Shown here one piece after another: positions 51,192 to 61,429 of a DNA stretch of 64,000 nucleotides (position 1 is the stretch's first letter; every line of letters begins with the position of its first letter). A program made the translations under genes and the position numbers. The notes under the pieces are model-generated. The model saw only the letters and a program-made list of their open reading frames with translations. It was not told the origin of the DNA and did not search any database. The DNA is from Pseudomonas hydrolytica (lineage in GTDB: Bacteria; Pseudomonadota; Gammaproteobacteria; Pseudomonadales; Pseudomonadaceae): NCBI RefSeq assembly GCF_021495345.1, contig NZ_CP099397.1, positions 1,674,001 to 1,738,000 of the forward strand, written 5' to 3'.

Positions 51192-53849
51192 ATGCGCACC
51201 GAACAATCCAAGACCGTCTATCTGAAGGACTATCAGGTTCCCGATTACCTGATCGACGAAACCCACCTGACCTTCGAGCTGTTCGAGGATCACAGCCTGG
51301 TGCATGCGCAGCTGGTCATGCGTCGCAACCCCGAAGCGGGCGCCGGCCTGCCCAAGCTGGTGCTGGACGGCCAGCAACTGGAGCTGCTGGAACTCAAGCT
51401 CGACGATCGCGAGCTGGGCGCGGCCGATTACACCCTGACCGACAGCCACCTGACCCTGCAGCCGACCCAGGAGCGCTTCGTGGTCGACAGCAGCGTGCGC
51501 ATTCACCCGGAGAGCAACACCGCGCTGGAAGGCCTGTACAAGTCCGGCAAGATGTTCTGCACCCAGTGCGAGGCCGAGGGCTTTCGCAAGATCACCTTCT
51601 ACCTCGACCGCCCGGACGTGATGAGCAAGTTCACCACCACGGTCAGCGCCGAGCAGCATGCCTACCCGGTGCTGCTGTCCAACGGCAACCCGATTGCCAG
51701 CGGCGCGGAAGAGGGCGGTCGGCACTGGGCGACCTGGGAAGATCCGTTCAAGAAGCCGGCCTATCTGTTCGCCCTGGTCGCCGGCGACCTCTGGTGCGTG
51801 GAGGACAGCTTCACCACCATGAGCCAGCGTGAGGTGGCCCTGCGCATCTACGTCGAGCCGGAGAACATCGACAAGGTGCAGCACGCCATGGACAGCCTCA
51901 AGCGCTCGATGAAATGGGACGAGGAGGTCTACGGCCGTGAGTACGATCTGGACATCTTCATGATCGTCGCGGTCAACGACTTCAACATGGGCGCCATGGA
52001 GAACAAGGGTCTCAACATCTTCAACTCCAGTTGCGTGCTAGCCAAGGCCGAGACCGCCACCGACGCCGCCCACCAGCGCGTCGAGGCGGTGGTGGCGCAC
52101 GAGTATTTCCACAACTGGTCGGGCAACCGCGTGACCTGCCGCGACTGGTTCCAGCTGTCGCTCAAGGAAGGCTTCACCGTATTCCGCGACAGCGAGTTCT
52201 CCGCCGATACCCACTCGCGCACGGTTAAACGTATCGAGGACGTGGCCTACCTGCGCACCCACCAGTTCGCCGAGGACGCCGGCCCCATGGCCCATCCGGT
52301 GCGCCCGGACGCGTACATGGAAATCTCCAACTTCTACACCCTGACCATCTACGAGAAGGGTTCGGAAGTGCTGCGCATGATCCACACCCTGCTCGGGCCG
52401 GAACTGTTCCGCAAGGGCTCGGACCTGTACTTCGAGCGCCACGACGGCCAGGCCGTGACCTGCGACGATTTCGTCAAGGCCATGGAAGATGCCAGTGGCA
52501 TCGACCTGACCCAGTTCAAGCGCTGGTACACCCAGGCCGGCACGCCGCGCCTGGAGGTCAGCGAGGCTTATGACGCCGCCACGCAGAGCTACAGCCTGAC
52601 CTTCCGCCAGAGCTGCCCGGCGACGCCGGGGCAGAGCGAGAAGCTGCCGTTCGTGATTCCCGTGGCGCTCGGCCTGCTCGATGCCCAGGGCAACGAGCTA
52701 CCGCTGCGCCTGCAGGGCGAAAGCGCGGCGCAGGGCGCCAGCCGCGTATTGTCGGTGACCGAGGCCGAGCAGACTTTCACTTTCGAGGACATCGCAGGCA
52801 AGCCGCTGCCGTCGCTGCTGCGCGGCTTCAGCGCGCCGGTCAAGCTGCACTTTCCCTATGACCGCGATCAGCTGATGTTCCTCATGCAGCACGACAGCGA
52901 TGGTTTCAATCGCTGGGAAGCGGGCCAGCAACTGTCGGTGCAGGTGCTGCAGGAGCTGATCGGCCAGCACCAGCGCGGCGAGGCCCTGGTGCTGGATCAG
53001 CGCCTGGTCACCGCGCTGCGCACTCTGCTCGAGGACGATTCGCTGGATCAGGCCATGGTCGCGGAAATGCTTTCGCTGCCGGGTGAGGCGTATCTGACCG
53101 AGATCAGTGAGGTGGCGGATGTCGAAGCCATCCACGCCGCGCGCGAGTTCGCTCGCAAGGAGCTGGCGAGCGCGCTGTTTGCCCCGCTGTGGGCGCGCTA
53201 CCAGGCCAACCGCGAAGTCTCCAAAGCCACGCCTTACGTGGCCGAGGCGGCGCACTTCGCCCGTCGCAGCCTGCAGAACATCGCGCTGTCCTATCTGATG
53301 CTCAGCGAGAAAGCCGAAGTGCTGGCGGCCTGCGTCGAGCAGTTCGAGAACGCCGACAACATGACCGAGCGTCTGGCGGCCCTGGCCGTGCTGGTCAACT
53401 CGCCGTTCCAGGACGAGCAGGGCAAGGCCCTGGCCATGTTCGCCGACTACTTCAAGGACGATGCCCTGGTCATGGATCAGTGGTTCAGCGTGCAGGCCGG
53501 TTGCCCGCTGCCTGGCGGTCTGGAGCGCGTGCATGCGCTGATGCAGCATGAGGCCTTCACTCTGAAGAACCCGAACAAGGTGCGCGCGCTGATCGGCGCC
53601 TTCGCCAACCAGAACCTGATCAACTTTCACCGCGCGGACGGGGCGGGCTACCGCTTTCTCGCCGATCAGGTGATCACCCTCAACGCCCTCAACCCGCAGA
53701 TCGCCTCGCGCCTGCTGGCGCCGCTGACCCGCTGGCGCAAGTACGGCGACGCCCGCCAGGCGCTGATGAAGGCCGAGCTGGAGCGCATCCTCGCCTCCGG
53801 CGAGCTGTCCAGCGACGTCTATGAGGTGGTGAGCAAGAGCCTGGCCTAA
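51192..53849 (+). CDS. pepN: Aminopeptidase N
   Basis: This 885-residue M1 metallopeptidase removes N-terminal residues from peptides in the cytoplasm. GAMEN (267-271) binds the free amino group. HEYFH (303-307) with E326 eighteen residues later ligates zinc. The length and C-terminal ALNPQIASRLLAPLTRWRKYGDARQALMKAEL agree with E. coli PepN. The ATG follows AGAGG at about 51178-51182. A strong terminator follows the stop. Confidence 0.97.
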   Translation: MRTEQSKTVYLKDYQVPDYLIDETHLTFELFEDHSLVHAQLVMRRNPEAGAGLPKLVLDGQQLELLELKLDDRELGAADYTLTDSHLTLQPTQERFVVDSSVRIHPESNTALEGLYKSGKMFCTQCEAEGFRKITFYLDRPDVMSKFTTTVSAEQHAYPVLLSNGNPIASGAEEGGRHWATWEDPFKKPAYLFALVAGDLWCVEDSFTTMSQREVALRIYVEPENIDKVQHAMDSLKRSMKWDEEVYGREYDLDIFMIVAVNDFNMGAMENKGLNIFNSSCVLAKAETATDAAHQRVEAVVAHEYFHNWSGNRVTCRDWFQLSLKEGFTVFRDSEFSADTHSRTVKRIEDVAYLRTHQFAEDAGPMAHPVRPDAYMEISNFYTLTIYEKGSEVLRMIHTLLGPELFRKGSDLYFERHDGQAVTCDDFVKAMEDASGIDLTQFKRWYTQAGTPRLEVSEAYDAATQSYSLTFRQSCPATPGQSEKLPFVIPVALGLLDAQGNELPLRLQGESAAQGASRVLSVTEAEQTFTFEDIAGKPLPSLLRGFSAPVKLHFPYDRDQLMFLMQHDSDGFNRWEAGQQLSVQVLQELIGQHQRGEALVLDQRLVTALRTLLEDDSLDQAMVAEMLSLPGEAYLTEISEVADVEAIHAAREFARKELASALFAPLWARYQANREVSKATPYVAEAAHFARRSLQNIALSYLMLSEKAEVLAACVEQFENADNMTERLAALAVLVNSPFQDEQGKALAMFADYFKDDALVMDQWFSVQAGCPLPGGLERVHALMQHEAFTLKNPNKVRALIGAFANQNLINFHRADGAGYRFLADQVITLNALNPQIASRLLAPLTRWRKYGDARQALMKAELERILASGELSSDVYEVVSKSLA

Positions 53850-54071: not shown

Positions 54072-54083
54072 CATTGGTCAATG
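54072..54083. promoter_or_regulatory. CATTG-GT-CAATG palindrome, candidate enhancer site
   Basis: A perfect 5+2+5 inverted repeat lies about 105 bases upstream of the predicted sigma-54 start, the usual distance for a bacterial enhancer-binding protein. A second palindrome, CTGATCAG, follows 2 bases later. Confidence 0.5.
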
Positions 54084-54155
54084 GCTGATCAGTCACGAAG
54101 AGAAATCGGCCAACAGCTCTCCCAAGCCTGTTTGCGCTGATACACCTGTTTGAAT

Positions 54156-54171
54156 TGGCACCATGGTTGCA
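54156..54171 (+). promoter_or_regulatory. Sigma-54 (RpoN) promoter
   Basis: TGGCACCATGGTTGCA has all invariant positions: GG (54157-54158), ten bases, GC (54169-54170), with full TGGCAC and TTGCA halves. Predicted start near 54182. It drives the DUF1302 gene and likely the genes behind it, and requires an activator encoded elsewhere. Confidence 0.85.
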
Positions 54172-54321
54172 ATGCCGAGCAGGATTTAGCCGCGGGTAAG
54201 TGCTCATCAGTCATTGCACATCCGCAGCAAATAAAAACAGAAGCCGTCGCCAGTACGGCACATCGCGCCCCGGCATAGGGGATCGCCCAAAAGAATGATC
54301 TGTCCTCGGAGTAATGTCTCG

Positions 54322-56286
54322 ATGGAAATTAAGTCCCGCAAGCCCGTTCTGCGTTTTGCACCGGCCAAGGCCGGCTATGCGTTGGCTGGCGTTCTGCCTT
54401 TGCTGGTTGCCGCTCAGGCCCAGGCGGTGGAGTTCAGCTTCGCCGATAACGAAATCACCGGTTCCATCGACACTACCGTTTCCTACGGCCAGCTGTGGCG
54501 CGTGCAGGGTCAGGACAAGACCAACAACGATATCAACACCAACGACGGCAATCGCAACTTCGATACCGGCCTGGTTTCGGAAGTGTTCAAGGTCACCACC
54601 GATCTGGAAGCCTCTTACCAGAACTACGGTGTATTCATCCGCGGTACCGCTTTCTATGACACCCAGATCATGGACAAGCGCAATGACTACTACGACAACA
54701 ACATCCCGGCGCAGCCGAGCCAGAGCTTCCCGCGCGACAACAGCTTCACCTACGAGACACGTCACAAGGCCGGCCGCGATGCGCAGATCCTCGACGCCTA
54801 TGTCTATGGCAATTGGGACGTGGCCGATATGCCGGTTTCCGGTCGCCTGGGCAAGCAGGTGTTCAACTGGGGTGAGGGTCTGTTCTACCGCGGCGGCGTG
54901 AACACGACCAACCCGGTCGACGCCGCCAAGTTCCGCCTGCCTGGCTCCGAGGTGAAGGAAGTATTGGTGCCGGTAGAAGCGTTGAGCTTCAACATCGGCC
55001 TGACTGACAACCTGTCCATGGAAACCTTCTATCAGTTCAACTGGAAGGAAACGGCGATCGACCCGGTGGGCACCTATTTCTCCGAGACCGATCTGTTTGC
55101 CGATGGTGGTAATACCGCCTACACAACGGTAGGCGCGCTATCCAATCCGTTGTTCCAGTCGCTCTATCCCACCCTGGCAGGTTCCAATTTCGCCGGTCTG
55201 CAGGGCACCGATTATCTGGACAGCAACGGCGTGATCAAGGTGGCCAGTGTCGGCTCCGACATCAACGCCAAGAACGATGGCCAGTTCGGCATTGCATTCC
55301 GCTATATCGCCGAGGAACTGAACTCCACAGAGTTCGGCTTCTACTTCGTCAACTACCACGCGAAGGAACCTACCATCTACGCCGATATCAACTCCACTTA
55401 TGCGGGGTTGAACATTGACCAACTGGCGGGGCTGGGTGGTTTCGCCTCTTACGACCAACTGGTGCAGGCCGCTGCTGGCAATGCCGCCGCCGCTCAGGTG
55501 CTCGGCCTCGTCAACGGTGCTGCTGCGGTAGACGTAGCCAACCAGGTCAACGCCCGCCGCGAGTATGCCGAAGATATCCGCATGTACGGCATGAGCTTCA
55601 ACACCACGGTCGGCGAGGCCTCGGTGTTCGGCGAGCTGTCCTACCGGCCTAATCTGCCAATCGGTATCGCCACCACCAACGATCTGCTCGGTGATCTGCT
55701 TGGTCAGGCGGCCTATCTGGCCGACGGTCGTCAGGTCAACATCGGCGGTCAACTGGTCGATATCAATGATCAGATCCACAACTCCGAGCGGGTCGAGGCC
55801 TTCAACACCTCGCTGGGCACCATTTACAACTTCGGCCCCTCGTTCGGTTTCGACTCGTTGTTCGGTGTAGCCGAGCTGGGTTCGGAGCACATTCGGGGCA
55901 GCAGCCTGCAATACACCGCTTACGATGGCAGTCGCCGCTATTACTCCGGCCGCGGCAATGGCTCCTATGTCTCCGGCTACGATCGCGACGACCAGGTCAA
56001 CAAGAACGCCTACGGCTACACCCTGGTGCTGTCCGGTACCTGGAACGACGTCTACGCCGGCGTGAACCTGTCGCCGTTCGCCGTATTCAAGCATGACTTC
56101 GAAGGCAATTCGCACCAGACCGGCAACTTCATCGAAGGACGCAAGGCCTACACCCTGGGTATGCGTGCCAGCTACCTGAATAGCCTGGAAGCCGAGATCC
56201 AGTACACCGAGTTCTACGGCGCTGGCCAGAACAACGGCGCGCGTGATCGCGACAACATCGGCGTCAACGTCAAGTACTCGTTCTAA
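54322..56286 (+). CDS. DUF1302 family outer-membrane-type protein
   Basis: This 654-residue precursor has a signal peptide cleaved after AQA (about residue 32). The mature part opens VEFSFADNEITGSIDTTVSYGQLWR, the DUF1302 start, and ends with an aromatic C-terminal strand (NIGVNVKYSF), as do outer-membrane beta-barrels. It lacks Cys. Many alternating aromatic strands support a barrel. DUF1302 proteins are commonly paired with DUF1329, as here. Exact function is unresolved. The gene has a sigma-54 promoter. A GGAG precedes the ATG. Confidence 0.9.
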   Translation: MEIKSRKPVLRFAPAKAGYALAGVLPLLVAAQAQAVEFSFADNEITGSIDTTVSYGQLWRVQGQDKTNNDINTNDGNRNFDTGLVSEVFKVTTDLEASYQNYGVFIRGTAFYDTQIMDKRNDYYDNNIPAQPSQSFPRDNSFTYETRHKAGRDAQILDAYVYGNWDVADMPVSGRLGKQVFNWGEGLFYRGGVNTTNPVDAAKFRLPGSEVKEVLVPVEALSFNIGLTDNLSMETFYQFNWKETAIDPVGTYFSETDLFADGGNTAYTTVGALSNPLFQSLYPTLAGSNFAGLQGTDYLDSNGVIKVASVGSDINAKNDGQFGIAFRYIAEELNSTEFGFYFVNYHAKEPTIYADINSTYAGLNIDQLAGLGGFASYDQLVQAAAGNAAAAQVLGLVNGAAAVDVANQVNARREYAEDIRMYGMSFNTTVGEASVFGELSYRPNLPIGIATTNDLLGDLLGQAAYLADGRQVNIGGQLVDINDQIHNSERVEAFNTSLGTIYNFGPSFGFDSLFGVAELGSEHIRGSSLQYTAYDGSRRYYSGRGNGSYVSGYDRDDQVNKNAYGYTLVLSGTWNDVYAGVNLSPFAVFKHDFEGNSHQTGNFIEGRKAYTLGMRASYLNSLEAEIQYTEFYGAGQNNGARDRDNIGVNVKYSF

Positions 56287-56307
56287 TACCCATAACCAGA
56301 AAAAACG

Positions 56308-56329
56308 CCGGGCGCCGTTGGGCGCCCGG
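56308..56329 (+). other. Intercistronic hairpin between DUF1302 and DUF1329 genes
   Basis: CCGGGCGCC/GGCGCCCGG (56308-56316 with 56321-56329) with a GTTG loop has no T-run, so it is more likely an mRNA stabiliser or partial attenuator than a full terminator. Confidence 0.7.
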
Positions 56330-56354
56330 TCAGACTCTTCACGGAGAATTACCC

Positions 56355-57725
56355 ATGCTGAACAAGCACAGGCTGATGGCCGTAGCCGTTGCGCTGGCGT
56401 TTTCCGCCGGTTCCGCGCTGGCTGCCGTTTCCCCGCAGGAAGCCGCCAAACTCGGCGATACCCTGACTCCCTTCGGTGCCGAGAAGGCCGGCAACGCGGC
56501 CGGCACCATCCCGGCCTGGACCGGTGGCATCACTCAGGCGCCGGCTGGCTACACCCGCTCGGGCCAGCACCACGTCAACCCGTTCCCGGAAGACAAGCCG
56601 CTGTTCACCATCACCGCGGCCAACCTGAGTCAGTACGAGGCCAACCTGACCCCGGGTCAGATCGCCATGTTCAAGGCCTATCCGGAAACCTATCAGATGC
56701 CGGTGTACCAGACCCGCCGCTCCGGCTCCGCGCCGCAGTGGGTCTATGACAACACCATCAAGAACGCCACCAGCGCCAAGCTGGCCGATGGCGGCAACGG
56801 TTTCACCAACGCCTATGGCGGCATTCCGTTCCCGATTCCGCAGAACGGCGTCGAGGCTCTGTGGAACCACATCGCCCGCTACCGTGGCACCTACATCGTG
56901 CGTCGCGCTTCGGAAGTGGCGGTGCAGCGCAACGGTTCGTACTCGCTGGTCACCTCGCAGCAGGAGGCCATGTTCAAGTACTACGTGCAGAACGGCTCCT
57001 TCGCCGACCTGAACAACATCATGTTCTACTACCTGTCGTTCACCACCAGCCCGGCACGTCTGGCCGGTGGCGCGACCCTGGTTCACGAGACCCTGGATCA
57101 GGTCAAGGAGCCGCGTCAGGCCTGGGGCTACAACGCCGGTCAACGTCGCGTGCGTCGTGCGCCGAACCTGGCCTACGACACGCCGATCGCCGCCGCCGAC
57201 GGTCTGCGCACCGCCGACGACACCGACATGTTCAACGGTGCTCCGGATCGCTACGAGTGGAAGCTGGTAGGCAAGAAGGAAATCTACATCCCGTACAACA
57301 ACTACAAGGTCACCAGCCCCGACGTTAAGTACAAGGACCTGCTGCAGGTCGGCCACCTGAACCCGGCCCTGACCCGTAACGAGCTGCACCGCGTCTGGGT
57401 GGTGGAAGGCACGCTGAAGTCCGGCGCTCGCCACATCTATTCCAAGCGTACCCTGTTCCTCGACGAGGACAGCTGGCAGGCCGCCGTGGTCGATCAGTAC
57501 GATGGTCGTGGCGAGCTGTGGCGCGTCTCCATCGCCTACCTGAAGAACTACTACGATCTGCCGACCACCTGGTCCGCACTCGACGTGTTCCACGATCTGC
57601 AGGCGCGTCGCTACCACGTGCAGAACCTGGACAACGAAGAGAGCAACACCATCGACTTCGGTCAGGCGATTCCGGACGATGGCTACTTCAAGCCGGCAGC
57701 CCTGCGTCGTCGCGGCACGCGATAA
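56355..57725 (+). CDS. DUF1329 family periplasmic protein
   Basis: This 456-residue protein has a signal peptide (cleavage after ALA, about residue 23). AVSPQEAAKLGDTLTPFGAEKAGNAAGTIPAWTGG is the hallmark DUF1329 start. YEWKLVGKKEIYIPYNNYK and HRVWVVEGTLK are also typical. The fold is LolB-like by published family description, pointing to lipid or hydrophobic-ligand binding; this is inference. GGAG precedes the ATG. A terminator follows, so the next two genes need read-through or their own promoter. Confidence 0.92.
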   Translation: MLNKHRLMAVAVALAFSAGSALAAVSPQEAAKLGDTLTPFGAEKAGNAAGTIPAWTGGITQAPAGYTRSGQHHVNPFPEDKPLFTITAANLSQYEANLTPGQIAMFKAYPETYQMPVYQTRRSGSAPQWVYDNTIKNATSAKLADGGNGFTNAYGGIPFPIPQNGVEALWNHIARYRGTYIVRRASEVAVQRNGSYSLVTSQQEAMFKYYVQNGSFADLNNIMFYYLSFTTSPARLAGGATLVHETLDQVKEPRQAWGYNAGQRRVRRAPNLAYDTPIAAADGLRTADDTDMFNGAPDRYEWKLVGKKEIYIPYNNYKVTSPDVKYKDLLQVGHLNPALTRNELHRVWVVEGTLKSGARHIYSKRTLFLDEDSWQAAVVDQYDGRGELWRVSIAYLKNYYDLPTTWSALDVFHDLQARRYHVQNLDNEESNTIDFGQAIPDDGYFKPAALRRRGTR

Positions 57726-57745
57726 TAGTCGTGTAGTCGTATGCG

Positions 57746-57775
57746 AAGGCCGCTACAGTAGTAGCGGCCTTTTTT
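57746..57775 (+). terminator. Rho-independent terminator after DUF1329
   Basis: An 11-bp stem AAGGCCGCTAC/GTAGCGGCCTT (57746-57756 with 57761-57771) with an AGTA loop and six T. It separates the DUF1302/DUF1329 pair from the propeller and transporter genes, which then need a promoter in 57776-57918. Confidence 0.93.
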
Positions 57776-57918
57776 GCATCAGCTGGACGAATAGGCTTCT
57801 ATAACGCGGGTTCTGCCTTAACAAAACATAACGTCGCGCCAATTGTCAGGGCTTTCCGAAGCTCGCTAGGATGGGCGGAATAAGTAGCACCGCCTATAAC
57901 AAGAAAGGGGGAAGGTAT

Positions 57919-59010
57919 ATGAGTGAGCCCGTCATGCGGCGCACCCAGTCCGGTCTGGCGTCCACCGTGGCGCGCAAACCGGCGCTCCGTGTCCATTCGC
58001 CGCTGGCTAAAGCGCTCTCGCTGTGCAGTGTGCTTTCCATTCTGGTTCTTGCTGCCGCACCCTTGCAGGCCGAGACCTCGGCTCCAGAAGCGGGTTATGC
58101 CATCGAGTCGCCCAAGGCCGTGCACAGCCTGCTGCTCGATGTGGTCAACACCGGCGAGCGCCTGGTTGCCGTCGGTGACCGTGGCCATGTCCTCTATTCC
58201 GACGATCAGGGTCAGAGCTGGCAGCAGGCCAAGGTGCCGACCCGGCAGATGCTGACGTCGCTGTTCTTCGTCGATGCCCAGCATGGCTGGGTGGTCGGTC
58301 ACGACGCGCAGATTCTCGCGACCACCGATGGCGGCAAGACCTGGACCAAGCAGTTCGAGGACCTCGAGCGCGAAGCGCCGCTGCTGGACATCTGGTTCAA
58401 GGATCTCGAGACCGGTTACGCCGTGGGCGCCTATGGCGCACTGCTGGAAACCACGGACGGCGGTGCGAACTGGGAAGACGTCAGCGACCGTCTCGACAAC
58501 GAAGACGCCTATCACCTCAACGCCATCACCGCGGTGAAGGATACCGGCCTGTTCATCGTCGGCGAACTGGGCGGCATGTTCCGTTCGCGCGATTGGGGCC
58601 AAACCTGGGAAGCGGTGGAGGACAAGCCCTACGAGGGCTCGCTGTTCGGCGCCCTGGGTACGGACGAAGCCGGCACGCTGCTGGTTTACGGCCTGCGTGG
58701 CCATCTGTTCCGCTCCACCGATTTCGGTGACAGCTGGCAGCAGATCTCCCTCAACACACCGAACAATGGTCCGCTGGAATTCGGCCTGGCCGATGGCACC
58801 CTGCTGCGTGACGGCAGCGTCGCCGTGGTCGGCCATGGCGGCACCGTGCTGCGCAGCACGGATCACGGTCAGAGCTTCAGTCTGATCAATCGTCCCGACC
58901 GCCTCTCGCTGGCCGGGGTAACTGCACTGGATAACGGCAACCTGATCCTGGTGGGGCAGGGCGGCGTTCACCTCGCCGCCTCGACTGGCGCCGATCTGGG
59001 CCAACAATAA
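57919..59010 (+). CDS. Ycf48-like beta-propeller protein, secreted
   Basis: The 363-residue protein has a long basic N-region and a signal sequence ending LQAETS at about residue 52. The mature part is made of repeats with the pattern GxxGxxLxTxDGGxxWxxx (ILATTDGGKTWTKQF, LLETTDGGANWEDV, MFRSRDWGQTWEAV, LFRSTDFGDSWQQI, VLRSTDHGQSFSLI). This is the Ycf48/BNR propeller. In photosynthetic organisms Ycf48 helps assemble photosystem II; here, beside an RND transporter, it may be an assembly or ligand partner. GGGGGAAGG precedes the ATG. Confidence 0.88.
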   Translation: MSEPVMRRTQSGLASTVARKPALRVHSPLAKALSLCSVLSILVLAAAPLQAETSAPEAGYAIESPKAVHSLLLDVVNTGERLVAVGDRGHVLYSDDQGQSWQQAKVPTRQMLTSLFFVDAQHGWVVGHDAQILATTDGGKTWTKQFEDLEREAPLLDIWFKDLETGYAVGAYGALLETTDGGANWEDVSDRLDNEDAYHLNAITAVKDTGLFIVGELGGMFRSRDWGQTWEAVEDKPYEGSLFGALGTDEAGTLLVYGLRGHLFRSTDFGDSWQQISLNTPNNGPLEFGLADGTLLRDGSVAVVGHGGTVLRSTDHGQSFSLINRPDRLSLAGVTALDNGNLILVGQGGVHLAASTGADLGQQ

Positions 59011-59028
59011 CAAGCCGGGAGCCTTTGC

Positions 59029-61383
59029 ATGACCAAGCATCAACACAAGCCTGCCTCCTTTCTCGAGCGGCTGATTTTCAACAATCGCCCGGCGGTGATC
59101 CTGATCTGCCTGCTGATCAGCATCTTCCTGTTCTACCAGGCTGCCCAGGTACGCCCGCAGACCAGCTTCGAGAAGATGATTCCGCTGGGCCACCCCTACA
59201 TCCAGAAGATGCTCGAGCACCGCAACGACCTGTCCAACCTGGGCAATACCGTGCGGATTTCGGTGGAGGCCACCGAGGGCGACATCTTCAGCAAGGAATA
59301 CATGGAGACCCTGCGTCAGGTTCATGACGAGGTGTTCTACATCCCCGGCGTCGACCGTTCCGGTCTCAAGTCGCTGTGGAGCCCGAGCGTGCGCTGGACC
59401 GAAGTGACCGAAGAGGGCTTCGCAGGTGGCGAGGTGATTCCGCAGACCTACGACGGTTCCGCCGACAGCCTGGAAGACCTGCGCAGCAACATCCTCAAGT
59501 CCGGCCAGATCGGCCGTCTGGTGGCGAACAACTTCAAGTCCAGCATCGTCGACGTGCCGCTGCTGGAGTCCTATCCGGACCCGGAAGATCAGAGCAAGCT
59601 GATCAAGTTGGACTACCAGAAGTTCTCCCACGAGCTGGAAGAGAAGATTCGCGAGAAGTACGAGGCGCAGAATCCCAACGTCAAGGTGCACATCATCGGT
59701 TTCGCCAAGAAGGTCGGCGACCTGATCGATGGCCTGGTGGGCGTGGCGCTGTTCTTCGCCGTCGCCATCGGCATCACCTTCGTGCTGCTGCTGTGGTTCA
59801 CCCACTGCTTCAAGAGCACCCTGGCCGTGGTGATCACCACCCTGATCGCGGTGATCTGGCAGCTCGGCCTGCTGCACACCCTGGGCTTCGGTCTCGATCC
59901 CTATTCGATGCTGGTGCCGTTCCTGGTGTTCGCCATCGGTATCTCCCACGGGGTGCAGAAGATCAACGGCATCGCCATGGCCTCGGGCGAAGCGACCGAC
60001 GCGCTTTCCGCTGCGCGCATGGCCTTCCGTCAGCTGTTCATCCCCGGCCTGGTGGCGCTGCTGTCCGACGCCGTGGGTTTCGTCACCCTGCTGCTGATCG
60101 ACATCGGCGTGATTCGCGAGCTGGCCATCGGCGCCTCGATGGGCGTGGCGGTGATCATCCTCACCAACCTGATCCTGCTGCCGGTACTGATTTCCTACAT
60201 CGGCATCGGCAAGCGTGCGGTGAAGAAGAGTCGTGAGGAGGCTGCCAAGGATCATCCGATCTGGCGCGCCATTTCCAACTTCGCTCACCCGATGGTGGCA
60301 CCGATCTCCGTGGTCATCGCCGTCGTGGCGCTGGCTGGTGGCGTCTGGTACGGACAGAACCTGAAGATCGGCGACCTCGACCAGGGCGCGCCGGAACTGC
60401 ATCCGGATTCGCGCTACAACCTGGACAACGACTTCGTCATCCGCAACTACTCGACCAGTTCCGACGTGCTGGTGGTGATGATCAAGACCGGCCCCGAGGG
60501 CTGCTCCACCTATGACAGCCTGGCCGCGATGGACGAGCTGATGTGGAAGATGGAGAACACCGAGGGCGTGCAGTCGGCCATCTCCATGGTCACCGTGTCC
60601 AAGCAGGTGATCAAGGGCATGAACGAGGGCAACCTGAAATGGGAAACCCTGTCGCGCAACCAGGACGTGCTGAACAACTCCATCGCCCGTGCCGAAGGCC
60701 TGTACAACGCCGACTGCTCGGTGGCGCCGGTGCTGGTGTTCCTCGAGGATCACAAGGCCGAGACCCTGTCGCGCGCGGTAGCCGCGGCCGAGGAGTTCGC
60801 CGCGCAGCACAACACCGACGAGCTGCAGGTGGTGCTGGCGGCCGGTAACGCCGGTATCGAGGCGGCCACCAACGAGGTGATCGCCGCGTCCGAGACCACC
60901 ATGCTGATCGCCGTGTATGCCGCGGTGAGCATCATGTGCCTGCTGACCTTCCGTTCGCTGGCCGCGACCCTCTGCGTGATCCTGCCGCTGGTGTTGACCT
61001 CGGTGCTGGGCAACGCGCTGATGGCCTTCATGGGCATCGGCGTCAAGGTCGCCACCCTGCCGGTGATCGCCCTGGGCGTGGGTATCGGTGTGGACTATGG
61101 CATCTACATCTACAGCCGTCTGGAGACCTACCTGCGTCAGGGGCTGTCGCTGCAGGACGCCTACTACGAGACGCTCAAGTCCACCGGTAAGGCGGTGCTG
61201 TTCACCGGCGTCTGCCTGGCCATCGGCGTGGCGACCTGGATCTTCTCGGCGATCAAGTTCCAGGCCGACATGGGCCTGATGCTGACCTTCATGTTCCTCT
61301 GGAACATGATCGGCGCGATCTGGCTGCTGCCGGCCCTGGCCCGCTTCCTGATCAACCCGGAGAAGCTGCGCGCCAAGGCCTGA
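59029..61383 (+). CDS. RND/MMPL-family transporter
   Basis: This 784-residue membrane protein follows the propeller gene by 18 bases. It has two halves, each with a membrane helix, a large periplasmic domain (about 55-245 and 445-600) and five more helices. GVGIGVDYGIYIYSR in the second half carries the Asp-Tyr proton-relay motif; the first half has GISHGVQKINGI at the same place, without the Asp. MMPL/HAE2 proteins export lipids, hopanoids and other hydrophobic molecules by proton flow. No membrane-fusion protein or TolC-like gene is present, so the DUF1302 barrel might serve as the outer-membrane partner. This is inference. Confidence 0.9.
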   Translation: MTKHQHKPASFLERLIFNNRPAVILICLLISIFLFYQAAQVRPQTSFEKMIPLGHPYIQKMLEHRNDLSNLGNTVRISVEATEGDIFSKEYMETLRQVHDEVFYIPGVDRSGLKSLWSPSVRWTEVTEEGFAGGEVIPQTYDGSADSLEDLRSNILKSGQIGRLVANNFKSSIVDVPLLESYPDPEDQSKLIKLDYQKFSHELEEKIREKYEAQNPNVKVHIIGFAKKVGDLIDGLVGVALFFAVAIGITFVLLLWFTHCFKSTLAVVITTLIAVIWQLGLLHTLGFGLDPYSMLVPFLVFAIGISHGVQKINGIAMASGEATDALSAARMAFRQLFIPGLVALLSDAVGFVTLLLIDIGVIRELAIGASMGVAVIILTNLILLPVLISYIGIGKRAVKKSREEAAKDHPIWRAISNFAHPMVAPISVVIAVVALAGGVWYGQNLKIGDLDQGAPELHPDSRYNLDNDFVIRNYSTSSDVLVVMIKTGPEGCSTYDSLAAMDELMWKMENTEGVQSAISMVTVSKQVIKGMNEGNLKWETLSRNQDVLNNSIARAEGLYNADCSVAPVLVFLEDHKAETLSRAVAAAEEFAAQHNTDELQVVLAAGNAGIEAATNEVIAASETTMLIAVYAAVSIMCLLTFRSLAATLCVILPLVLTSVLGNALMAFMGIGVKVATLPVIALGVGIGVDYGIYIYSRLETYLRQGLSLQDAYYETLKSTGKAVLFTGVCLAIGVATWIFSAIKFQADMGLMLTFMFLWNMIGAIWLLPALARFLINPEKLRAKA

Positions 61384-61403: not shown

Positions 61404-61429
61404 AACCGCGGCCGAGTGCCGCGGTTTTT
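61404..61429 (+). terminator. Rho-independent terminator of the RND gene
   Basis: A 9-bp stem AACCGCGGC/GCCGCGGTT (61404-61412 with 61418-61426) with a CGAGT loop, then TTTTTGTTTT. Confidence 0.92.

Follow-up and report, generated by a model that had tools for sequence, protein, structure and literature searches.

A four-gene AmeABCD-type set beside pepN in Pseudomonas hydrolytica, a likely transport system for hydrophobic compounds

We propose that four neighbouring genes of Pseudomonas hydrolytica encode a transport system of the AmeABCD type, with hydrophobic or amphipathic compounds as substrates, in which a propeller and a pump would form one shared engine serving substrate-specific pairs of barrel and carrier; we give this reading a probability of about 0.7. 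The genes lie in the window, by which we mean the whole 64-kb stretch of DNA analysed here (positions 1674001–1738000 of contig NZ_CP099397.1, the single contig of the 5.29-Mb genome that was also searched for further copies), and coordinates below count from its first base. They follow pepN (51192–53849) on the forward strand, span 54156–61383 and encode, in order, a DUF1302 protein, a DUF1329 protein, a Ycf48-like propeller and an HAE3/MMPL-type RND pump. Open reading frames (ORFs) and Pfam matches confirm the coordinates and gene descriptions of an earlier, sequence-only reading of this DNA. That reading had called the system uncharacterised, which does not hold: it is a real, conserved and previously described kind of system, since a deletion study of 2018 had already given the same quartet the name AmeABCD (PMC6394551), and P. 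putida proteins of these kinds have been linked with one another (PMC10866462); here and below, papers are cited for those of their passages that concern these proteins.

The four families are found together well beyond the window. In one draw of 143 gammaproteobacterial genomes, each of a different family among the rows shown and searched four times, strong matches numbered 19 for the pump (E<1e-100), 19 for the propeller (E<1e-40) and 20 each for DUF1302 and DUF1329 (at least 300 bits), with thresholds chosen after seeing the lists, and the identical 19 genomes hold all four families at this level. The twentieth genome, G038 (81% complete, ~540 contigs), is strong only for DUF1302 and DUF1329; its pump is merely 24% identical and its propeller match is weak. 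The genes are contiguous, on one strand and in the canonical order in 16 of the 19 genomes, the window included, and rearranged in G025, G091 and G112. The two gene pairs are thus not independently distributed, and the unity that had been proposed for the four genes is borne out by one system in other organisms, against which the two transcription units of the window do not argue. Among plasmid records, 37 hold both pump and DUF1329; 40 hold the pump, and 40 are listed of the 41 that hold DUF1329. These co-occurrence tests on plasmids and genomes ignore shared ancestry, and their thresholds were picked after seeing the data. Nine plasmid regions, picked by eye, were inspected (seven pump-bearing and two pair-only; these cover two of the three DUF1329-only records, NZ_AP029020 being left out, and one of the three pump-only records). 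All four genes are present in six of the seven pump-bearing regions, in the canonical order in five, one of which has a small extra gene; the seventh pump, picked for its record without a DUF1329 match, stands alone near transposases.

The numbers of pairs and pumps suggest that the engine is shared. The P. hydrolytica genome holds six DUF1302 and seven DUF1329 genes, forming six barrel/carrier pairs, with a single pump of AmeD type and a single propeller; the next pump match is 24% identical over 170 residues. Across 59 genomes of the genus, every genome has DUF1302 and 58 have the pump, with totals of about 245 DUF1302 genes and 111 pumps (DUF1302 was counted from per-genome totals, G194 entering as 9 candidates, not as its 13 matches, which are likely split; six pump matches below 39% identity, in five genomes, are left out of the 111). 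DUF1302 outnumbers the pump in 48 of the 59 genomes, equals it in 11 and falls below it in none, and 25 of the 32 genomes with one pump carry two or more DUF1302 genes. Two P. aeruginosa plasmids, picked as pumpless (E<=1e-40), hold the pair, one of them beside a fatty acid-CoA ligase gene; such pair-only plasmids, in a genus where almost every genome has the pump, are as engine sharing predicts, two cases being few. In Pseudomonas, we infer that propeller and pump would work as a single common engine, mostly located at pepN, and that substrate specificity would come from several barrel/carrier pairs, which have controls of their own and often adjoin genes of catabolic enzymes. Of additional note, the seventh DUF1329 gene of the genome (G000:C1:4798652-4799740; L105) has no DUF1302 match beside it and branches away from the genome's other copies in the tree. 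Outside the genus, G025 and G112 (loci L147–L149 and L151) combine many barrels with several pump loci that are rearranged; there too, the numbers of pairs and pumps do not always match 1:1.

The features of the locus are as follows; the Pfam matches of all four proteins exceed the curated cut-offs.

54075–54096, forward strand: conserved upstream element TGGTCAATGGCTGATCAGTCAC, a candidate sigma-54 activator site, from the alignment of 34 relatives and the window
54156–54171, forward strand: sigma-54-type -24/-12 promoter TGGCACCATGGTTGCA, from consensus, conservation in relatives and control blocks
54322–56286 (possible start 54295), forward strand: DUF1302 outer-membrane barrel gene, AmeA-like (PF06980, 539 bits; predicted model)
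56308–56329, no strand assigned: G+C-rich hairpin in the gap between the DUF1302 and DUF1329 genes, terminator-like on the minus strand only
56355–57725, forward strand: gene of a DUF1329 periplasmic LolA-like protein, AmeB-like (PF07044, 550.9 bits)
57746–57775, forward strand: intrinsic terminator separating two transcription units, from folding energy and similar hairpins in relatives
57843–57872, forward strand: sigma-70-like motif TTGTCA-N18-TAGGAT, 5' of the propeller and pump genes (motif scan, 9/12)
57919–59010 (alternative start 57871), forward strand: Ycf48/BNR-type propeller gene, AmeC-like (PF14870, 103.9 bits; structure match 2xbg)
59029–61383, forward strand: HAE3/MMPL-type RND pump gene, AmeD-like (PF03176, 100.2 bits)
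61404–61426, no strand assigned: hairpin 3' of the pump gene, terminator-like on both strands

Predicted structures and profile scores give each product a plausible part in this scheme. The DUF1302 product is predicted to be the porin-type outer-membrane barrel of the transport system: the fold matches of its model (mean predicted local distance difference test score, pLDDT, 78.3) are of the porin type, OccK/OprD and AlgE among them, and TolC-like structures are not among the matches listed. Searches of the barrel and of the DUF1329 product against the PDB by phmmer gave weak, unrelated matches only (E 0.03 to 0.6); the DUF1329 structure 4z48 was missed by phmmer and recovered by fold comparison only. 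The DUF1329 product belongs to the LolA superfamily/DUF1329, with a LolA-like domain at about residues 163–452, and may work as a carrier between the membranes, shuttling its cargo as opposed to forming part of a continuous duct. The propeller scores 103.9 bits on PF14870 (cut-off 27) and matches the Ycf48-like structure 2xbg (E 2.2e-23); since it reaches 99.4 of the 326 bits required by the NCBIfam Ycf48 equivalog, we call it Ycf48-like, not Ycf48, and propose it as the periplasmic partner of the pump. The pump itself would be a proton-driven inner-membrane protein; it carries S306-H307-x-x-Q310 in transmembrane helix 4 (TM4) beside D689-Y690 in TM10, and the TM4 Ser-His-x-x-Gln is invariant. 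Its best NCBIfam model is HAE3 (TIGR00921), at 147.3 bits under a cut-off of 351.9, and its remote relatives include HpnN, MmpL and BstA types. We rejected an assignment to HpnN, MmpL3 or BstA, the scores being far below the cut-offs (TIGR03480, 68.1 of 751.85 bits; NF052608, 20.7 of 1400; NF045600, 28.1 of 1400). The pump lies between the propeller gene and, on the opposite strand, the gene of a BatD-type protein. The statement of the sequence-only reading that it lacks a membrane-fusion partner is upheld by Pfam, which detects no membrane-fusion domain in the six window proteins scanned, both pump neighbours included; with no membrane-fusion protein encoded beside it, an HAE1 tripartite efflux pump of the AcrAB-TolC type with an adjacent fusion partner was also rejected. 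Two side observations concern the barrel and the carrier: several public records name DUF1302 relatives “glycine betaine transmethylase,” a misfit with the predicted barrel, and residues 22–160 of the window DUF1329 protein, which lie N-terminal to the LolA-like domain, are modelled mostly with confidence and are barely covered by the listed fold matches. In one genus genome, the pump gene (G179:C40:139722-142067) has one in-frame TAG.

The barrel/carrier pair appears to be under sigma-54-type control. The promoter TGGCACCATGGTTGCA has the full sigma-54 consensus and is the sole exact TGGCAC-N5-TTGCW in the window; because such a site is also present in 11 of 100 shuffles of the window, it could, taken alone, be due to chance. 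Among the 36 relatives that have the pair, 34 have readable upstream DNA (L016 and L028 are truncated), and in all 34 the best GG-N10-GC site upstream of DUF1302 has 9–11 of the 11 consensus bases (all 11 in 29), the second-best site in the same regions having at most 8. In 1012 control blocks of 550 bases taken elsewhere in the same 34 loci, at least 9 consensus bases were reached in 73 and 11 in none. Since the site is conserved in all 34 relatives as set against these blocks, we accept the promoter as real; the DNA around it has diverged among the aligned relatives. The perfect promoter that had been noted on the barrel gene is thereby confirmed, and expression of this gene is predicted to be conditional, as had also been proposed. 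The upstream element TGGTCAATGGCTGATCAGTCAC ends ~60 bases 5' of the promoter and is recognisable in most aligned relatives (weakly in L027 and L034, not in L032 and L035); a search of the genome that allowed up to 3 mismatches revealed no other copy, and the element is a candidate binding site for a sigma-54 activator. No GAFTGA or searched Walker-type motif of such an activator occurs in any frame of the window. The regulator AphR of comparable operons in Betaproteobacteria is presumably linked to sigma-54. Its predicted site GCTTGATCATTTGATCATGC (PMC6449761) differs from the window element; the resemblance is loose, the match is not close, and we claim no identity.

Downstream of DUF1329, a hairpin at 57746–57771 is followed by a T run, and the segment 57735–57785 folds at -26.6 kcal/mol (z -6.35). 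A simple terminator scan did not list this hairpin; a similar one is present in 31 of the 39 loci that hold DUF1329 and the propeller, a count made without a shuffled control. These results agree with the earlier claim that a terminator divides the set into two transcripts. Sigma-70-like sites of the quality of the motif before the propeller gene (9/12) number 2 in 10 kb, with 1.9 expected from shuffles, and TTGTCA-N18-TAG[GC]AT is found 5' of the propeller gene in 26 of 35 relatives with the pair. Because of the terminator and the separate promoter motifs, expression of the pair is probably separate from that of the propeller/pump genes and conditional; for the engine, constitutive expression is our guess. 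The strong G+C hairpin at 56308–56329 may set the relative expression of DUF1302 and DUF1329.

The arrangement at pepN is probably old. The pair is present in 36 of 80 loci from the genus and its near relatives; another 36 have pepN and the propeller gene without it, and 8 are truncated or otherwise incomplete. The nearest named relatives of the window by its pump gene are Pseudomonas of the oleovorans/mendocina group. pepN also flanks the quartet in G007 and G139, which belong to other families (a pepN fragment at the end of each stretch, 42 and 136 bits), and in the DUF1329 tree these two group with the window and its Pseudomonas counterparts (96/89). Since pepN flanks both sets and their DUF1329 groups with that of the window, the quartet linked to pepN is probably the ancestral state, and the pairless loci probably arose by loss of the pair; the sigma-54 pair of the window would then probably be the ancestral pair of the pepN locus. 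At one of the pairless loci (L058), ~5.4 kb of other DNA takes the place of the pair between pepN and the propeller gene. At three loci, from two metagenome-assembled genomes and Denitrificimonas caeni (L060, L061 and L062), DUF1329, propeller and pump are kept and no DUF1302 was detected on the locus; pepN is present at L060 and L061, and L062 is truncated.

To judge the substrate class, hand-picked ORFs near the other five pairs of this genome were scanned with Pfam, with no control for how common such genes are. The scans show an AMP-forming (acyl-CoA) ligase and a MalT/LuxR-type regulator near the pair at 4348 kb; a MalT/LuxR-type regulator, a thiolase and a short-chain fatty acid transporter at 1254 kb; an acyl-CoA dehydrogenase and an alkyl sulfatase at 3401 kb; alpha/beta hydrolases at 5203 kb; and MFS, LysR, capsule-synthesis and MdcG matches at 236 kb. 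On plasmids, genes for ring cleavage, monooxygenases or aldehyde dehydrogenases, or acyl-CoA genes, lie within 12 kb of five of the six quartets. These neighbours support hydrophobic or aromatic growth substrates in general and do not name the substrate of the window pair.

Several observations weigh against parts of our proposal. More than one AmeD-type pump is present in 26 of the 58 pump-bearing genus genomes, and across the class one strong pair per pump is the pattern in many genomes, the excess being found mainly in the genus and in G025 and G112. One of the 59 genomes, G185, has a barrel and no pump (no match at E<=1e-20) and seemed at first to contradict the scheme; its pepN site lacks the set in the ~7 kb seen downstream of pepN, and around its single DUF1302 no DUF1329 matching that of the window was found within 15 kb, the stretch to which the search was confined. 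As engine sharing rests on counts, spare barrels could instead use other pumps or none. The promoter motif of the engine occurs in only 35 of 72 relatives, and in 9 of the 37 without the pair. In the DUF1302 tree, which backs the ancestral pepN linkage less well, G007 and G139 form long branches outside the Pseudomonas group, and the own copy at 5203 kb falls beside the group of the window (82/80). The pair at 236 kb has no lipid-enzyme neighbour among the ORFs scanned. Finally, PA3923 of P. aeruginosa, like the window barrel a DUF1302 outer-membrane protein, is reported as a laminin-binding surface receptor, and the passages on it do not mention transport (PMC6890786), so barrels of this kind may have another function, whether instead of transport or alongside it.

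Little is understood of the way in which Gram-negative bacteria carry oily nutrients and pollutants through their two membranes and the aqueous space in between. For the window set, we lean slightly towards uptake or delivery to catabolism as the direction, and put export at a little under even odds. The sequence-only reading had spoken of export; this direction stays in play and is not established, since the cited sources differ or leave it open. A bolder and quite tentative extension of the uptake side is a division of labour like that of TonB, in which one RND engine, working inward, would energise many interchangeable barrel/carrier pairs, some of them plasmid-borne. The proton path would then be the Ser-His-x-x-Gln and Asp-Tyr residues of the pump, and a Pseudomonas cell would gain hydrophobic nutrients by adding pairs, not pumps. 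NPC1 is likewise thought to work inward. If one pump indeed serves many pairs, two Pfam families of unknown function would gain a testable role, and plasmid-borne pairs would become predictable substrate modules for biodegradation.

Dedicated efflux of toxic hydrophobic compounds, as proposed for AmeABCD, in which the pump would take substrates from the inner membrane and the other three proteins would lead them out, is the rival we take most seriously, while holding it rather doubtful. It would explain why the Castellaniella defragrans deletion mutant is less tolerant of high limonene even with acetate and why, after treatment with carbonyl cyanide m-chlorophenyl hydrazone (CCCP), its cells retain slightly more Nile Red; the kinetics of Nile Red efflux are, however, almost identical in mutant and wild type (PMC6394551). 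Betaproteobacterial quartets under predicted aromatic regulators have likewise been interpreted as a defence against toxic aromatics and solvent stress (PMC6449761), whereas the P. putida genes are needed for growth on a nutrient, Tween20 (PMC10866462). The porin-type matches of the barrel model speak only weakly against efflux, because AlgE is itself an exporter, and the catabolic neighbours suit either direction.

Trafficking of envelope lipids or lipoproteins of the HpnN/MmpL/Lol kind, with neither nutrient nor toxin as substrate, seems to us improbable. Of the lipid handling that the sequence-only reading had suggested, nothing was found beyond the LolA-like fold of DUF1329 and the remote HpnN, MmpL and BstA kin of the pump; the low HpnN, MmpL3 and BstA scores, the catabolic genes near four of the other five pairs of this genome and on the inspected plasmids, and published phenotypes that concern growth substrates (PMC6394551, PMC10866462) all argue against it. 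We consider it very improbable that the set is two independent neighbouring gene pairs with no joint function. The terminator and separate promoter motifs do divide it, the 80 loci include as many pairless pepN sites as sites with the pair, and two plasmids hold the pair without the pump; against this stand the shared 19 genomes, the conserved order, the co-occurrence on plasmids and, in P. putida, correlated fitness of pairs that are unlinked (PMC10866462). On the same genomes, gene order and 37 plasmid records, chance neighbourhood was set aside.

To the AmeABCD-type reading, the present analysis adds the ratio of pairs to engines, the probable ancestral linkage to pepN, a sigma-54-type promoter conserved among relatives, and the TM4 signature; the open-access passages at hand mention neither a shared engine nor this signature, and we do not claim these as unpublished. 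For P. putida KT2440, we take PP_2018 to be Ycf48-like and PP_2019 to be of the RND type, and assume that the window pair is not the ortholog of PP_0765/PP_0766. These two pairs, PP_0765/PP_0766 and PP_2018/PP_2019, show correlated fitness and are reported as essential on Tween20, a result of random barcode transposon sequencing (RB-TnSeq) taken as given in the paper, and co-folding suggests some contacts among their products (PMC10866462). Like the window proteins, they are described as DUF1302, DUF1329, a periplasmic protein and a multidrug efflux-type transporter (PMC10866462); judged from the tag numbers, they occupy two loci, whereas the window pairs lie side by side. The same four families form one operon in Betaproteobacteria under the predicted aromatic-catabolism regulators AphR, AphS and AphT, of which AphR belongs to the XylR/DmpR group (PMC6449761).

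Two further likenesses rest on description, not on sequence. The “Nanopod” cluster of the benzene-degrading ORM2a has highly expressed DUF1329, YCF48-related and MMPL genes and a porin-like protein, and its direction of transport is left open (PMC13101534); unlike the window set, it comes from Desulfobacterota and has extra genes. A DUF1329 deletion by Shetty and colleagues is known to us through its citation in PMC13101534, as neither “DUF” nor the locus tag appears in the main text of PMC3958437. In Thalassolituus (TOL_3187/TOL_3188), a single protein that fuses MMPL and LolA-like domains lies beside a porin and is raised on n-C28 alkane (PMC6304351); no propeller is mentioned in those passages, and the authors discuss export of outer-membrane proteins. 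Passages of PMC7603352, PMC2817675, PMC3110197, PMC7145413, PMC7012976 and PMC3597751 name these families in lists or gene clusters and are not used as evidence.

Among the closest counterparts is AmeABCD of C. defragrans 65Phen, which consists of DUF1302, DUF1329/LolA superfamily, COG4447/Ycf48 and HAE3-type RND proteins, AmeD forming a distinct HAE3 lineage in the published tree; its deletion leads to poor growth on non-functionalised monoterpenes (PMC6394551). Compared by family, not against the C. defragrans sequences, the window set has the same four members, adjacent and in the order A-B-C-D. In C. defragrans they form one cassette in a monoterpene island and are not detectable on acetate (PMC6394551), whereas the window set lies at pepN, is divided into two transcription units with a sigma-54-type promoter on the pair, and is accompanied by five further pairs elsewhere in the genome.

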